From Candidatus Cloacimonadota bacterium (GTDB lineage Bacteria > Muiribacteriota > UBA6191): 64,000 nt of DNA. The notes below the pieces were generated by a model. It was not told the DNA's origin and did no database searches. It saw nothing but the letters and a program-made list of their open reading frames with translations. The stretch's first letter is position 1, and each line of letters starts with the position of its first letter. Where the stretch lies: positions 107,464 through 171,463 of the forward strand of contig JAGSHD010000011.1 in the NCBI GenBank assembly GCA_023954715.1, in the 5' to 3' direction. The position numbers were made by a program, and so were the translations under genes. This document shows, piece after piece, positions 13,507-64,000 of this stretch.

Positions 13507-15123
13507 ATGAGAAGACTTTTAGGAACATTGGCAGTTAGTGCCACAATTTTAGCAACATCACATGCTGCAAGTCCATTCACAGACGTATCATCAAACCACT
13601 GGGCATATGACGCAGTTAACACTGTAGTACAGTCAGGTTTAATGAAAGGTTACACAGGCGGAATGTTTAAAGGTGGAGAAAAAGTATCTAGATACCAAAT
13701 GGCTATCATCGTTTCTCGATTACATGACAAAATCGCTACTGGTGGATCAGCAAACGTTTCTCCAGATGTAATGCAAGCAATGGATCGTCTTGGTGAAGAA
13801 TTCATGGACGAACTAGATTTAATCGGAGCTAGATTAACAGCTCTAGAAAACGCTTTCCATGAGCATGTATCTACTACTGATGGTGCTACAATGTCTACAG
13901 ACGGATTCAAATTCTCTGGAGATACAAGAGTAAGAACAGAATTCAGAAACATTGATTATGCAGCAAATTCTGGTTTTTATGACGAAGATACTCAAACTTT
14001 AGTAAGAACTAACTTAAACATCGATAAGTCTGTTGATAAGGCTGACTTTCATGTTCAACTACAGCACTCAACAACAATGGGTGATGCAACTGGTGCAGCT
14101 GGTACTCAATTAGAGTTACATGAAGCATATGTTAACTTACATATTGGTGATTCCTCTTCATTAAAAATGGGTCGACAAGAGGTTAGCCGTGGAAACGAAA
14201 GTTTAATCGGAAGCGTTAACTGGTCAAACACTCCAATGTCTTATGATGGATTTGTTTTCTCTTCAAATACTGATTCTTTTGATTACAAATTATGGACTTT
14301 AAGTGTAGCTAATAACGGTAACACTTTTGGTGCTCTTCCTGTTGCTGGAACTGTTGATACTCAATTAAACGGTGCTGATGCATGGTGGAAAGATGTATTT
14401 GATGGTGCTTTGCACGTACATTACTACAACAGAGTTGATGGAGATGCAGCAGCTACAGCTGGAGATCGTTTAGATACTTACGGATTTGATTGGACTAGAA
14501 CTCATAACGAGTGGGACTTCTATGTACAGTACGCTAAGCAAGGTGGAAACGATGGTGCAGCTGGATCTTTAGTAGACTACGATGGTGACATGATGAACTT
14601 GAAGGTTATGTATGATTTCGATAACGGGCACAAAGCTGGTTTAGAATATACTAACTACTCTGGTGATGATGCTGGTGCTGTTGGAGCTTCTGTTAATAGT
14701 AACGGAGCTTTCGAAGCATTATACCCTACTGGACATAAGTTCTTAGGTGCTGCTGACATCTTTACTCAGTCTAACATCGAAGACATTACTATTCACTGGA
14801 CTAAGAAAGCAAACGAAAGAAACACTTTTGGTTTAGCTTACCATATGTTCAAATTGGACAACTCTAATACTGCTGTAGGTTTAAACGCTGCTAATACTGC
14901 TGGGTTTATTGCTCCAACTTTAACACCAGGAACTACTTCATTCAATGATGATTTAGGTACTGAATTAGATTTATTCTGGAAGCACACTTACTCTAAAAAC
15001 GTAGATTTTAAAGTAGGATATGCAATGTTTAGCGCTGGAGATTACTTCACAGCTAACAAAGCTGCTGGAACTGTAGCTCCTGATTCTAACTTCGGTTGGG
15101 TATCAACTTCAGTAAAATTCTAA
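13507..15123 (+). CDS. SLH-domain outer-membrane porin
   Basis: Signal peptide, single SLH domain FTDVSSNHWAYDAVNTVVQSGLMKGYTGGMFKGGEKVSRYQMAIIVSRL, coiled-coil segment, beta-barrel-like C-terminus ending in NFGWVSTSVKF. Confidence 0.9.
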   Translation: MRRLLGTLAVSATILATSHAASPFTDVSSNHWAYDAVNTVVQSGLMKGYTGGMFKGGEKVSRYQMAIIVSRLHDKIATGGSANVSPDVMQAMDRLGEEFMDELDLIGARLTALENAFHEHVSTTDGATMSTDGFKFSGDTRVRTEFRNIDYAANSGFYDEDTQTLVRTNLNIDKSVDKADFHVQLQHSTTMGDATGAAGTQLELHEAYVNLHIGDSSSLKMGRQEVSRGNESLIGSVNWSNTPMSYDGFVFSSNTDSFDYKLWTLSVANNGNTFGALPVAGTVDTQLNGADAWWKDVFDGALHVHYYNRVDGDAAATAGDRLDTYGFDWTRTHNEWDFYVQYAKQGGNDGAAGSLVDYDGDMMNLKVMYDFDNGHKAGLEYTNYSGDDAGAVGASVNSNGAFEALYPTGHKFLGAADIFTQSNIEDITIHWTKKANERNTFGLAYHMFKLDNSNTAVGLNAANTAGFIAPTLTPGTTSFNDDLGTELDLFWKHTYSKNVDFKVGYAMFSAGDYFTANKAAGTVAPDSNFGWVSTSVKF

Positions 15124-15155
15124 TTAAAACTTATATAGTTTAAATAGATAAAAAG

Positions 15156-15190
15156 ATCACCTTCTTGTTTTCAAGAAGGTGATTTTTTTT
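15156..15190 (+). terminator. Rho-independent terminator of porin gene
   Basis: atcaccttcttg-tttt-caagaaggtgat followed by T8-9. Confidence 0.9.
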
Positions 15191-15598
15191 TGTATAAAAC
15201 AAATTTGTAAAAACAGCTACTAATAAAATATATAGTGAAGTAAATAGTATCCAATAAAGATACACACGATGTAAGAGTAACAGAACAGCTTAGATTAAAA
15301 GGTATATTTTAGAATTGTTAATTGATATATGTTTAGCTTAATTGATGGGTATGGTATAATTTAGGAAAATTACCATGGAAGAACTCTGTTTGATTGAGCA
15401 AATTGTCGATAAATAGCAAAGAGAATCACTACTATTATCCCAGATTTGATTAGGCGGGGGTGCCCAATTAAATACTTTTTTAACTTCTAATATGGTAGTA
15501 GCACTGCATTGTCAAACACAGACTACTTTTACGTAGATTAAAGGTGCAAAAATTAATATAGCTTGGCCTAGCTACATAGGCATAAAAAATGGGGATTT

Positions 15599-26817: not shown

Positions 26818-28122
26818 ATGAGTAAATTTACTAAGAGACAAAAAGAGTTAATGAATTCTTTAGGGGATGGGGTTCTGGTTTTGGCAGGAGCTTCTTTGAT
26901 GGTAAGAAATTCTGATGTAGATTTTCCGTTTCGTCAAAATTCGGACATGAGATATTTAGTTGGTTTTGAAGAGCCTGACTCTGTTTTGATTTTAAGAAAA
27001 AAGTCAGACTTGATTGAGTCTGTTTTAATCGTTCCACCAAGTGATAAATTACAAGAAATCTGGAACGGAAAAAGACAAGGTATTGAGGGAGCAATTAATA
27101 ACTTCAATGTAGATCGGGCATACTCAAATAAAGAGCTAGAAGCTGCACTACAAAAAGAGCTCGAAGGATTTACCACTTTATTTTTTGAATGGAACGAGTC
27201 AGATAGCTTTGATCAAATCATTCTAAAAACCTTTAAAGCCTTCAAAAATGCTTACAGAAAAAATCCAATCTATCCAACGACTACAAGTTCTTACGGAAAG
27301 TCTCTATGGCAAATGAGACAAAGAAAAGATCAGGATGAACAAAAAACTTTAGGAGTAGCTGCAAAAATTACTCAATCTGCTTTTGAGCACAGCATGAAAA
27401 ATCTAAAGCCAAACATGAATGAAGCTGAAATATACGCTTTATTAGAGTATGAATATCTTAAAAATGGTGGGACATCTGGTTATGGCAATATTGTAGCTGG
27501 GGGGGCAAATGCCACTTGCCTTCATTACACTAATAATAATGCACCATTAAATGCTGAAGATATTCTATTGATTGACTCAGGGTGTGAAAAAGATGGTTAT
27601 ACTGCTGACGTAACAAGGTGCTTTCCTGTGAATGGAAAATTTGGTGATAAGCAAGCTAAGATTTACTCCATTGTCTTAGAGGCTAATAAAAGGGCGATTG
27701 AAAAATGTGTGGTGGGAAGTTCACTTCGTGCAGTACATGAAGAGGCTTTAAATGTTTTGGTACAAGGTCTGATTGATATTAATGTATTAGATGGTAGCCT
27801 AGAGCAAAATCTAAAAAGTATGTCTTATAAAAAGTTTTACATGCATAACACTTCTCATTGGTTGGGTATGGATGTTCACGATGTTGGTTTATATGATGTG
27901 GATGGTGTACCAGTACCCTTCGAAGAAGGGATGTGTTTAACAGTAGAGCCAGGTTTATATTTTAATCCAGACTTTTCAGAGCGCAGTACAGATTATGACG
28001 GCATTGGAGTAAGAATTGAAGATAACATCGTGATTTCTAAGTCTGGACCAATCAATTTAACAAAAAATATCATAAAAGAAATTTCAGAAATTGAAAGTAT
28101 GATGGCAGGATCTTCTGAATGA
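26818..28122 (+). CDS. pepP: Xaa-Pro aminopeptidase (M24B)
   Basis: FRQNSDMRYLVGF aminopeptidase P N-domain; LLIDSGCEKDGYTADVTRCFP, HNTSHWLGMDVHDVG, LTVEPGLY, GIGVRIEDN metal/active-site motifs. Confidence 0.93.
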   Translation: MSKFTKRQKELMNSLGDGVLVLAGASLMVRNSDVDFPFRQNSDMRYLVGFEEPDSVLILRKKSDLIESVLIVPPSDKLQEIWNGKRQGIEGAINNFNVDRAYSNKELEAALQKELEGFTTLFFEWNESDSFDQIILKTFKAFKNAYRKNPIYPTTTSSYGKSLWQMRQRKDQDEQKTLGVAAKITQSAFEHSMKNLKPNMNEAEIYALLEYEYLKNGGTSGYGNIVAGGANATCLHYTNNNAPLNAEDILLIDSGCEKDGYTADVTRCFPVNGKFGDKQAKIYSIVLEANKRAIEKCVVGSSLRAVHEEALNVLVQGLIDINVLDGSLEQNLKSMSYKKFYMHNTSHWLGMDVHDVGLYDVDGVPVPFEEGMCLTVEPGLYFNPDFSERSTDYDGIGVRIEDNIVISKSGPINLTKNIIKEISEIESMMAGSSE

Positions 28123-36731: not shown

Positions 36732-38480
36732 ATGAAATCAAATATATTATTTTCGAAATTTCATTGGCAATGGATTTCAAATATCTGGAAAAGGCATTTA
36801 CCCTTTGCTTTATTGTTAGTTTTTTTGACAATATTATCAACGGTATCCTCATTATTATTTCCGTTATTTTTTAAATACCTAATTAATGAGTTACAGAAAA
36901 ATGCTACCTCATTACAATTAGATGAGTTTCGCTTGCAAATGATTGGTCTACTGTTAGTTATGGGATTATTACAATTGTCTGCTGCAAGTTATCCTTATTT
37001 TCGAGCAAAGATGAACCTAATCATTGATTGGGAAGTGAGAGAAAAGTACTTTCATTTATTGCTAGAGCAAAATCAAGAGTTTTTAAGCCACTTTAAAACA
37101 GGAGACTTGATCACAAGGTTGACCGATGATATCGCAAGGTTTCCTAAAATTTCATGGTTTTGTTGCTCTGGTATTTTTCGAGCCTTTAACTCTTTATCTA
37201 TTGTTGTCTTTTGCATTGGTGTAATGACTTATTTAAACTGGAAGTTGGCTCTGTGTACGTTGCTTCCATTGCCTTTTGCCTTGTGGGTTTATACTACCTT
37301 GGCTTCTAAATTAGATGAGGGGTATAAAGCTTCACAAAAAGCTATTAGTGAAACAAATAATCATTTGGAGTCTTGTTTATCTGGGATCAAGATATTAATG
37401 GCTTTCAATGGAGAAAAAAGAGAAGTAAATCGTTTTGAAAGAATTTTAGATGATCGTTACCATGCAGAGTTTAATATTACAAAACTTTCTGGAAAAATGG
37501 GCTTGTTTTACGAGTTTATTGGTCATTTTGGGCAGGTTATTGTGGTTTTAGTTGGTGGTTTGATGGTTGTTCGGGGTGAGTTAAGTTTAGGGGACTATTA
37601 TGCATTTTTTTCTTATCTAGGAATCATTGTGTACCCAATGCTAGATATACCCCATTTATTTGTTACATCAAGACAGGCTTTTGTATGTATTGATCGTTTA
37701 GAGGCTCTCAATCAAAAAGCTGAGGATGTGAATCAAGAGGTGACAGAAAAATCTCATGTAATGAGCGAGTTTGAGCATTTGGAGCTAAGAAATGTTTCTT
37801 TTTCTTATGAAGAGCAAAGTGTTTTAGATAATATTACTTTTTCTGTGAAAAAAGGTCAGATCGTAGCAATTGTTGGTAAGATTGGCTCCGGAAAATCCAC
37901 TCTCCTACAATTGATTGCGGGTACACATAAGGCTGGTTTTGGGGATGTTCGATTTAATGGAGTATCTAGAAAAGACATCAATGAAAAATCTTTAAGAAAG
38001 TCCATGGCTTTTGTAGCACAAGAACCAACAATTTTCTCAGAAACAGTAGAAGAAAATATTCGATTTTTTCGAGAGTACACTCCAGAGCAGATCAAGACCT
38101 CTGCTGGTTTGTCTCAAGTGAAAGATGAAATGGATTTATTGCCTAATGGATTCTTGGAGAAATTAGGGCAAAATGGAGTAAATATATCTGGGGGGCAAAA
38201 GCAAAGGCTTACTATTGCAAGAGCATTGCTAGGTAAACCGGGTTTGCTTTTAATGGATGATGTAACCGCAGCATTAGATGCTGAAAATGAGAAATTATTT
38301 TGGGGGGATTTAAAAAATCATTTAGATGATGCAGCTATTGTAGTAGTAACCCATCGAATGGCAACAGCAAGACAAGCTCATAAGGTGATTTATTTAGATG
38401 AAGGAAAAATAAAAGCTCAAGGAACTTTTGAAGATTTAAAAGAAAGATCACAAGACTTTCGTGAAATGATTAATGAATAG
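36732..38480 (+). CDS. ABC exporter half-transporter (degenerate Walker B, consensus signature)
   Basis: Walker A VGKIGSGKST, signature NISGGQKQR, Walker B GLLLMDDVTAALD, H-loop THR. Confidence 0.92.
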   Translation: MKSNILFSKFHWQWISNIWKRHLPFALLLVFLTILSTVSSLLFPLFFKYLINELQKNATSLQLDEFRLQMIGLLLVMGLLQLSAASYPYFRAKMNLIIDWEVREKYFHLLLEQNQEFLSHFKTGDLITRLTDDIARFPKISWFCCSGIFRAFNSLSIVVFCIGVMTYLNWKLALCTLLPLPFALWVYTTLASKLDEGYKASQKAISETNNHLESCLSGIKILMAFNGEKREVNRFERILDDRYHAEFNITKLSGKMGLFYEFIGHFGQVIVVLVGGLMVVRGELSLGDYYAFFSYLGIIVYPMLDIPHLFVTSRQAFVCIDRLEALNQKAEDVNQEVTEKSHVMSEFEHLELRNVSFSYEEQSVLDNITFSVKKGQIVAIVGKIGSGKSTLLQLIAGTHKAGFGDVRFNGVSRKDINEKSLRKSMAFVAQEPTIFSETVEENIRFFREYTPEQIKTSAGLSQVKDEMDLLPNGFLEKLGQNGVNISGGQKQRLTIARALLGKPGLLLMDDVTAALDAENEKLFWGDLKNHLDDAAIVVVTHRMATARQAHKVIYLDEGKIKAQGTFEDLKERSQDFREMINE

Positions 38481-60149: not shown

Positions 60150-60179
60150 AATCCTCTGCCTTTGGGTGGGGGATTTTTT
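60150..60179 (+). terminator. Rho-independent terminator of PHA operon
   Basis: aatcctctgcc-tttg-ggtgggggatt stem (G-T wobbles) followed by T6. Confidence 0.75.
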
Positions 60180-60397: not shown

Positions 60398-60727
60398 ATG
60401 AGAATACAATTTTATGGAGCATTATTGCTTTTTACATTCTTGTTAGTTGCAGATAGTTATGGGGCTTCTTGGTCCGTGGAAACACAGAATCCTTACAATA
60501 ATATGAGTTCAAATAATTCAGTTGCTGTAAATGGAAAAATTTATTATTTTGGAGGATATAATGGTAGTCCAACTTCTGGTGATATGATAGTTTTTGATCC
60601 TAATGGAGGAGCATCAAAATGGAGTCAAGAAGACACGAATACTATGGGGAGAAGAAGCAATGCTGGGACAGCTGTATGCTCTGATAATAGGATATATATC
60701 ACGGGGGGCAAGGTGATGCTGGTGTAG
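60398..60727 (+). CDS. Kelch-repeat secreted protein, fragment 1 (frame interrupted at G6)
   Basis: Signal peptide MRIQFYGALLLFTFLLVADSYG; AVNGKIYYFGGYNG kelch motif; frame breaks at 60703-60708. Confidence 0.75.
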   Translation: MRIQFYGALLLFTFLLVADSYGASWSVETQNPYNNMSSNNSVAVNGKIYYFGGYNGSPTSGDMIVFDPNGGASKWSQEDTNTMGRRSNAGTAVCSDNRIYITGGKVMLV

Positions 60728-60768
60728 CTCTTTCAGATACAATTGTTTATGATACAACAGCTGCGCGT

Positions 60769-62946
60769 GTGGGTAACATGCTGTATGTCACGGGAGGAAT
60801 GAATAATGGTGGTCCCAATGCGTATTCTACAGTGTATTATTTAGATGTAAGTTTACCAAATCCTACCTGGAGTTCAACTACAATGGTATCAGGAAGGTGG
60901 CAGCATAGTGCCGTATTAGTAGGTACTGATATATATATTATGGGAGGATATTCTGGAAATTCTGGTTCAGCTATTTCATTGATGGTTGATGTTTTGGATA
61001 CTCTAACAAATACTCATTCGAGTAAATCAGTAGATAATCTTCCCCGCATGAGGTATGCCCACGAGGCAGTTTATAGTTCGACAGAATCACGAATTTATGT
61101 TTATGGAGGAAGCGTTTCCAATCAATCTGCTGTTTATAGTAATGTAGTAGATGTTTTAGATGTTTCTACTGGATCATGGATACCCGGTGTTATCCCTGAT
61201 GGAGGTACAGGTACCATGTACGTAAATGCTTCAATCATAAATGAAAAAATCTATTTTAAAAGTGGTTGGAATGGAGCTCATCCCAATTTAATGGATGTTT
61301 TAACCTTGGATACTTTTAATGGCGGAGGTGGTGGAAACTCTGGAACAGGAACTGAAAACTTCGTCGCAAAGTTTAACGCTTCTGGTGAGCATGAAAATTC
61401 TATGATTTACCAAGATGTGGATGATGAATTTGTTGTGGGAACTAGCGTAGCTACCAATGCTCAACAAGCGTTAGATGTAATGGGCGCAATCAATGTAGGG
61501 GATACAGATACAGATACAGGTACTGAAGGTGCAATCAAATATTCTGCTCTAGCCCAAGATCTAGAAGGGTTTGTAAACGGGGAATGGAAGTCTCTAACAT
61601 TAGGTGCAGGGAGTTCTCCTGCACCTACGATAACACCGTGGTCAGAAAACGCTTCGGGTGATGTATATCGGGATGCTAACAATGTTGGTATTGGTACTGA
61701 TACTCCTTTTTCAAGACTATCCTTTGGAGATAGTCCAGCAGTTTTTGATAACCCAGAAACTAGAATAGCAATATTTGAAGATCAGTTTGGTAGGGAGTTT
61801 TACGGAATCGGAGCTACGAGTATAGACCCATTAGATCCCGGTTTAGCCTTTTTTGGTGGAACAGGAGCTTCTATTCCATGGGATGGAACAACAGGTAAAC
61901 AAGCAAGTATGATCTTACATAAGTCTGGCAAAATTCGATTTAAGAAAAATGCTAATTTCGAAGAAAAAATTGGTATTGGTAATGAGTATCCATTTTCAAG
62001 AATATCATATGGCGGAACTTCTGCCTTCGATTCACCAGATACAAGAATAGCTTTATTTGAAGACCGGTTTGGAAAAGAGTTTTATGGTATGGGTGCTACA
62101 AGTGGCACTGGTGCAGAACCTGGTTTAGCTTTTTGGGGTGGAACAGGGTCTTCTATTCCTTGGAATGGTACGACTGGTAAAAAAGCTGATTTTGTTTTAT
62201 ATAAGTCAGGTACTGTGAAATTTCGGAAGAATGCAAACTTTGAGGCTAAAATTGGTTTAAATACTGATAGCCCGAATTCAATTTTCTCGTTAGGGTCGTC
62301 TCATGCATTCAATGATCCAAACTCTAGAATAGCACTATATGAACTATCATCTGGCACATATTTTTATGGGATTGGAGGAGCTACTCTACCTAAGCTTTCT
62401 GGTGGAACAAACTCTGGCCTTGCCTTTTGGGGTGGGACAGGTTCATCTATTCCTTACAATGGATTTAGTGGAGACTTTCCAGATTTGTTTATAAATGAGC
62501 CGAACGGAAATGTTGGAATTGGATTATTAAGCTCTCCCAACGAAAAGCTACAGGTGAATGGCGGGATATCCCTGGGTGATACAACAGGATCAAATGCAGG
62601 AACCATTAGATATAACGGCGACTTTGAAGGTTATGATGGTAGTGAATGGGAGTCATTGACTAACTCTGTAGCTGTCTCGAGTCCATGGATGTTGGTGGAA
62701 ACTCTTGCAAATAATCCTTCTGTCCATACGAGTTATAATGGGGGTCGTGTAGGTATCGGGACTGGAGAAGATGCTCCAAATGGTACACTAGAGGTCAGAG
62801 ATGATCACGCAACTTTAATGATAACGAGCATGTCTGACACTGTATCTCATCCATCTATTGCTATGAGCGCAATGGCTCCAAATGGTTTTAGAAAAGGGGG
62901 GCAATGTACTTTCACAGTGGTACATCGGCCAATGAGACTTTTGTAG
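60769..62946 (+). CDS. Kelch/tail-fibre-like secreted protein, fragment 2
   Basis: NMLYVTGGMNNGG, TDIYIMGGYSG, SRIYVYGGS kelch repeats; then VGIGT..P...L repeats; ends after G6 at 62896-62901. Confidence 0.8.
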   Translation: MGNMLYVTGGMNNGGPNAYSTVYYLDVSLPNPTWSSTTMVSGRWQHSAVLVGTDIYIMGGYSGNSGSAISLMVDVLDTLTNTHSSKSVDNLPRMRYAHEAVYSSTESRIYVYGGSVSNQSAVYSNVVDVLDVSTGSWIPGVIPDGGTGTMYVNASIINEKIYFKSGWNGAHPNLMDVLTLDTFNGGGGGNSGTGTENFVAKFNASGEHENSMIYQDVDDEFVVGTSVATNAQQALDVMGAINVGDTDTDTGTEGAIKYSALAQDLEGFVNGEWKSLTLGAGSSPAPTITPWSENASGDVYRDANNVGIGTDTPFSRLSFGDSPAVFDNPETRIAIFEDQFGREFYGIGATSIDPLDPGLAFFGGTGASIPWDGTTGKQASMILHKSGKIRFKKNANFEEKIGIGNEYPFSRISYGGTSAFDSPDTRIALFEDRFGKEFYGMGATSGTGAEPGLAFWGGTGSSIPWNGTTGKKADFVLYKSGTVKFRKNANFEAKIGLNTDSPNSIFSLGSSHAFNDPNSRIALYELSSGTYFYGIGGATLPKLSGGTNSGLAFWGGTGSSIPYNGFSGDFPDLFINEPNGNVGIGLLSSPNEKLQVNGGISLGDTTGSNAGTIRYNGDFEGYDGSEWESLTNSVAVSSPWMLVETLANNPSVHTSYNGGRVGIGTGEDAPNGTLEVRDDHATLMITSMSDTVSHPSIAMSAMAPNGFRKGGQCTFTVVHRPMRLL
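61684..62511 (+). repeat. Three tandem repeats of about 95 codons
   Basis: (N)GIG(T/N)..(T/Y)PFSR(L/I)S(F/Y)G...R(I)A(I/L)(F/Y)E..(F)G.EFYG.GAT...GLAF(F/W)GGTG(A/S)SIP(W)(D/N)G.. at about 61684, 61969 and 62251. Confidence 0.85.
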
Positions 62947-63206
62947 GAATAGCTGCTGATACTGTAGTTACTAATATATCAGCGACAGCAGACAATAAAG
63001 TTGGCATAGCTACAACAACTCCAACAGAGACTCTAGATGTAAATGGAAACACCAAGATTAACGGTTTCGTACAGTTAGATACAACTGTAGGTAGTCCAAA
63101 CATTGCATGTTCTGATTCAAGTCATTACGGTAGGATGGTAGTTGACCCTACCGCAACTCCAGCAGCGCTATGGATTTGTGGAAGTGCGGGATGGGTTTCA
63201 AAATAG
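62904..63206 (+). CDS. Kelch/tail-fibre-like secreted protein, fragment 3 (C-terminus)
   Basis: VGIATTTPTETLDVNGNTKINGFVQLDTT typical C-terminal fibre repeat; open only in the +1-shifted frame after the G6 tract. Confidence 0.7.
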   Translation: MYFHSGTSANETFVGIAADTVVTNISATADNKVGIATTTPTETLDVNGNTKINGFVQLDTTVGSPNIACSDSSHYGRMVVDPTATPAALWICGSAGWVSK

Positions 63207-63794: not shown

Positions 63795-64000
63795 GTAATT
63801 ATTCAGGTGGCCTCTTCGATCGAGGTTGAGGAGTATACAATCTTTTTTTTACTTTTTACTTTACTGATGCGGTTTAGCTCATTATCATCTTTTGCCTTTA
63901 GTGCTTTTTTCGAGTAGTCCACTACACTTCAAAAGCAATAAAAACAAAATATAATAATGATCAAAAACCTAAATGTAGTCAATCTTTATTAAGAAGTTGA
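63795..64000 (+). repeat. PHA-locus noncoding repeat, copy B (reaches window edge)
   Basis: Collinear with 55258-55462; starts immediately after the phasin stop codon. Confidence 0.9.

Follow-up and report, generated by a model that had tools for sequence, protein, structure and literature searches.

Near the end of the window, the 64,000-base stretch of DNA analyzed here, a gene for a secreted Kelch and fibre-like surface protein is broken twice, and both changes of reading frame occur at a run of six G residues (G6). A same-genus relative carries an uninterrupted counterpart, and comparable G/C runs scanned elsewhere in the genome leave their reading frames intact. We conclude that the gene is probably a recent pseudogene, the product of replication slips at G tracts in a dispensable surface gene.

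Three reading frames of one Kelch-fibre gene

The initial annotation described three consecutive ORFs in frames 2, 1, and 3 that would yield one product of ~935 aa if repaired. We recovered the same three frames; they are collinear and together make up a single gene of ~936 codons (Table 1). Both frame steps are -1, and the central fragment runs for 751 codons without a further stop. The frames overlap by 37 nt (fragments 1 and 2) and 55 nt (fragments 2 and 3), with one G6 run in each overlap; these are the only two G/C runs of at least six bases within the gene, and if two runs were placed at random, each overlap would receive one of them with p = 0.0004. The proposal that the breaks lie at these runs agrees with frame log-odds from a codon-position Markov model trained on long ORFs of the same genome. 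Between the first G6 run and the first stop, the frame of fragment 2 is already preferred (+4.3 vs -10.0), and between the second G6 run and the second stop, the frame of fragment 3 is preferred (+3.3 vs -8.8); the model's frame change falls at the G runs, not at the later stops.

Table 1 Features of the Kelch-fibre gene, in window coordinates.
Feature	Position	Strand	Content	Basis or remarks
Terminator-like hairpin of upstream gene	60150..60175	+		Scan match only
Fragment 1	60398..60727	+	Signal-peptide-like N-terminus, Kelch blade 1, start of blade 2	ORF, frame 2; alternative ATG 60374
Fragment 2	60691..62946	+	Remaining propeller (blades 2-6), fibre modules; without export signal	ORF stop to stop, frame 1; first usable start GTG 60769
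G6 run, break 1	60703..60708	+		Homology (YITGG then QGDAG..ALSD vs YISGGQ..ALSD) and frame log-odds
Possible loss of ~22-24 residues, Kelch blade 2	60745..60781	+		24-column alignment gap; blade spacing
Fragment 3	62892..63206	+	Last fibre repeat and conserved C-terminus	ORF, frame 3; first ATG 62904
G6 run, break 2	62896..62901	+		Frame log-odds; inside overlap of fragments 2 and 3

The intact counterpart lies in a comparison genome of the same genus, G001 (NVVD01000001.1, MAG NORP72, labelled Candidatus Cloacimonadota), where a single uninterrupted ORF of 831 aa aligns with all three fragments. Identity to this protein is 46% for fragment 1 (at the N-terminus), 36-50% for fragment 2, and 57% for fragment 3 (at the C-terminus, including GRM.VDPTATPA.LWICGSAGW.SK). 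At break 1, the two glycines encoded by the G run mark the exact point where the alignment leaves fragment 1 and enters fragment 2; the DNA of the relative at this site reads GGAGGG and is not a G6 run. The segment that holds break 2 is absent from the G001 protein, and the stretch just 5' of break 2 has no homologue among 36 relatives; because no relative has that segment, break 2 is placed by the frame overlap and coding likelihood only. Because the gene neighbourhoods differ, the G001 gene is only a possible strict orthologue. Compared with this intact homologue, the gene in the window carries frame-disrupting changes of the kind used to recognize pseudogenes.

The domain content fits a single secreted protein, as the initial annotation had it. 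In Pfam, fragment 1 matches Kelch_6 (E 3.7e-10) and fragment 2 matches Kelch families down to E 2.6e-19, with Kelch_1, Kelch_6, and Kelch_2 above the Pfam cut-off in these two fragments, as in a Kelch-repeat beta-propeller; six blades can be counted. The putative signal peptide of fragment 1 was read directly from the sequence. Judging from the terminator-like hairpin upstream, the gene is probably transcribed as a unit separate from the preceding gene.

Beyond the propeller, the protein is made up of VGIG..TP...LDVNG-type repeats, a kind often met in fibre proteins of phage-like or predator origin. Against PHROG, fragment 3 weakly matches tail-type families, and the protein has no fibre match in Pfam or NCBIfam and no S74 match. 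Like the mosaic adhesive trimer (MAT) fibres of Bdellovibrio (PMC10769870), it is fibre-like and secreted and carries short repeats of the form VGIG..TP...L.V.G, and fragment 3 gives a non-significant match (E 0.027) to the Bd2439 MAT structure 8OL4. Bdellovibrio MAT proteins combine an invariable N-terminal domain with a variable C-terminal tip. The protein studied here differs in starting with a Kelch propeller, a domain that goes unmentioned in the MAT fibre paper (PMC10769870), and its host is not known to be a predator.

Blade 2 of the propeller is short: its spacing is ~30 aa, compared to 50-54 in the other blades, and it lacks ~22-24 residues relative to the G001 protein. The gap lies directly after break 1 and may be a third lesion in the gene. 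It could instead be natural variation, which is conceivable because the counterpart is only ~46-50% identical and sits in a different neighbourhood.

Homopolymers and frame changes across the genome

We considered whether the source cells carry an intact gene from which the consensus dropped one base at each G tract. The window corresponds to bases 107464-171463 of contig C32 (171,463 bases), in a draft genome of 4.58 Mb in 38 contigs, in whose assembly we found no 16S rRNA gene; a completeness of only 86% and the position of the gene, which stops 794 bases before the end of C32, are both compatible with a local error. On the other hand, many contig ends, that of C32 included, overlap one another exactly, usually by 141 bases, which indicates a short-read de Bruijn assembly, and Illumina assemblies are reported to contain the fewest frameshift pseudogenes and artefacts (PMC11017572). 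The end of the window (position 64000, also the end of C32) itself overlaps the end of C31 by exactly 141 bases.

Frame scans covering 1.69 Mb of the genome, with most contigs sampled at both ends, also argue against a local error, as they revealed no other comparable break at a G/C run. Within this sequence, the frame holds across 51 coding G/C6 runs and all eight coding G/C7 runs. The scans flagged four G/C6 runs as frame switches, namely the two of the Kelch-fibre gene and two that are ordinary gene overlaps. Three other genes contain G8 or G9 runs within intact ORFs, including a G9 in a 386-aa ORF ~1.6 kb inside C31, measured from the end that overlaps C32. The G7 run at 27499 and the G6 runs at 38190 and 22297, which had been offered as intact controls, do sit in uninterrupted coding frames, and the other fibre-family members of this genome are uninterrupted, although two of these contain G6 runs of their own. 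Frame breaks are not enriched near contig ends in these scans, and we found neither a second copy of the gene nor a variant contig in the draft genome. The strongest other candidates for frame switches are mostly gene junctions or overlaps, with priA as the clear exception; some with short overlaps or low confidence (e.g., on C6 and C11) stay candidates. We rejected a genome-wide undercall of homopolymers on the basis of the frame scans together with the 59 in-frame coding G/C6-7 runs. These genome-wide controls favour real frame changes over sequencing error, and we regard a local error at both sites of this one gene, for instance through locally low coverage, as unlikely.

Phase variation, recoding, or loss of the gene

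Because the interrupted gene encodes an exposed surface protein, the typical class for such switches, its two G tracts could in principle toggle expression through slipped-strand changes, the assembly having caught both tracts in the OFF state. Within the gene, only the G tracts are sites of breaks and the remaining frame is preserved, and the Campylobacter-type poly-G contingency loci are alike in that G tracts set the frame of a surface gene. In contrast to those loci, where tracts are mostly 9-10, the tracts here are 6 and lie below the published threshold of 7: the poly-G switches on record have 7 or more residues, mostly 9-10, and switching has been shown from 8 (PMC6321876). Nor does the genome show an excess of long G/C runs. 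In the 1.69 Mb scanned, runs of length 5, 6, 7, 8, and 9 number 407, 72, 8, 0, and 1, a steady fall-off, and the whole 4.58-Mb genome contains six sites of at least 8. The tract at site 1 is absent in the relative, and two tracts that are both OFF would make an inefficient switch. A contingency gene would be expected to have a tract of at least 7-8 and either conservation of that tract in homologues or an excess of long tracts in the genome; the gene in the window has none of these. The two-switch phase variation that the initial annotation had put forward is thus left without every testable signature (tract length, genome-wide excess, and conservation), and we consider it quite unlikely. If the tracts proved variable, the gene would stand out among contingency loci for its short tracts, and it would come from an uncultured lineage.

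Programmed -1 recoding at both G6 runs, by ribosomal frameshifting or transcriptional slippage, would restore the full protein. Both steps are indeed -1, site 1 offers G GGG GGC in frame, which might act as a tandem slippery heptamer and is preceded by AGGA at a distance of some ten bases, and priA of the same genus appears to be recoded at an A10 run (see below). Against this, site 2 is a poor heptamer, and the sequence downstream of either site forms no stable structure (z +1.19 at site 1 and +0.12 at site 2); we found no pseudoknot or hairpin that could act as a stimulator downstream of the two G6 runs. The slippery site and frame change are not conserved, as the same-genus counterpart is one ORF that reads straight through, without the G6 run at site 1. 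Transcriptional slippage is reportedly not caused by G and C runs, which were found to be free of it in E. coli and Buchnera (PMC5574713). Programmed recoding at these sites is therefore very improbable. We are hardly more inclined to a variant in which expression tolerates slippage, as may be the case at the A10 run of priA, and two frameshifts yield low, regulated amounts of the Kelch-fibre protein, or in which the two G tracts form a two-lock phase switch.

Among the explanations first listed for this locus, then, the central observation of one gene broken twice at G6 runs stands, whereas undercalls and slippage of the polymerase or ribosome are disfavoured; an ordinary, recent pseudogene, originally named only as a refutation, fits best. 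The intact gene would encode a secreted surface protein in which fibre-like repeats follow a Kelch propeller of six blades. Each G tract is one base off the coding register, which would arise most simply through slipped-strand replication. We infer from the sequence that the first slip would have abolished function and that the second could then have accumulated without selection; half of a Kelch blade may likewise have been lost, in frame, in the absence of selection. The loss is judged to be young because the frames are otherwise free of stops, although the lack of further nonsense mutations also fits an allele that is still in use.

Like bacterial pseudogenes that arose by homopolymer slips, this gene shows single-base tract changes, retains the rest of its ORF, and has an intact counterpart in a relative; it differs in having been hit twice and perhaps in having lost part of a blade as well. 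This appears to be ordinary homopolymer slippage inactivating a surface gene, and it cautions against taking every frameshift at a G tract for a switch.

A split priA at a conserved A10 run

The frame scan also found that priA, which encodes the replication-restart helicase, is split at an A10 run in the window genome (L083:13036-13623 and 13590-15218, on contig C15). The two parts match PriA_3primeBD, DEAD, Helicase_C, and PriA_C in Pfam. In the same-genus relative G001 (L183:944-3126, contig C21), priA is split in the same way: the A10 run is identical, sits at the same position, and again goes with a -1 step, and the helicase parts of the two proteins are 80% identical. In contrast, priA is a single open frame of 737-755 aa in G002, which represents the next genus, and in G006 and G007. 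Between the opening of the helicase frame and the Walker A motif, there is no ATG, GTG, or TTG in either species of the genus.

The conservation of the split in two separate assemblies argues for recoding. We think that priA is probably recoded, most likely through transcriptional slippage at the A10 run, with -1 frameshifting as another candidate mechanism; slippage of this kind has been described for Thermus dnaX (PMC1088944), which we invoke as a parallel. Our literature search returned no reported case of priA with a programmed frameshift, and the main text of the works on frame transitions that it covered does not include priA. The priA result is stronger than that for the Kelch-fibre gene, and this conserved A10 split in a replication-restart helicase merits separate study.

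A further frame transition in both genomes lies at a conserved G6 run where a DNA polymerase I-like gene overlaps with the TsaE-like ORF downstream of it, near 14716 in L108 (at the end of contig C5 of the window genome) and near 279649 in contig C40 of G001. This junction resembles an ordinary overlap of genes, with TTG as the start codon.
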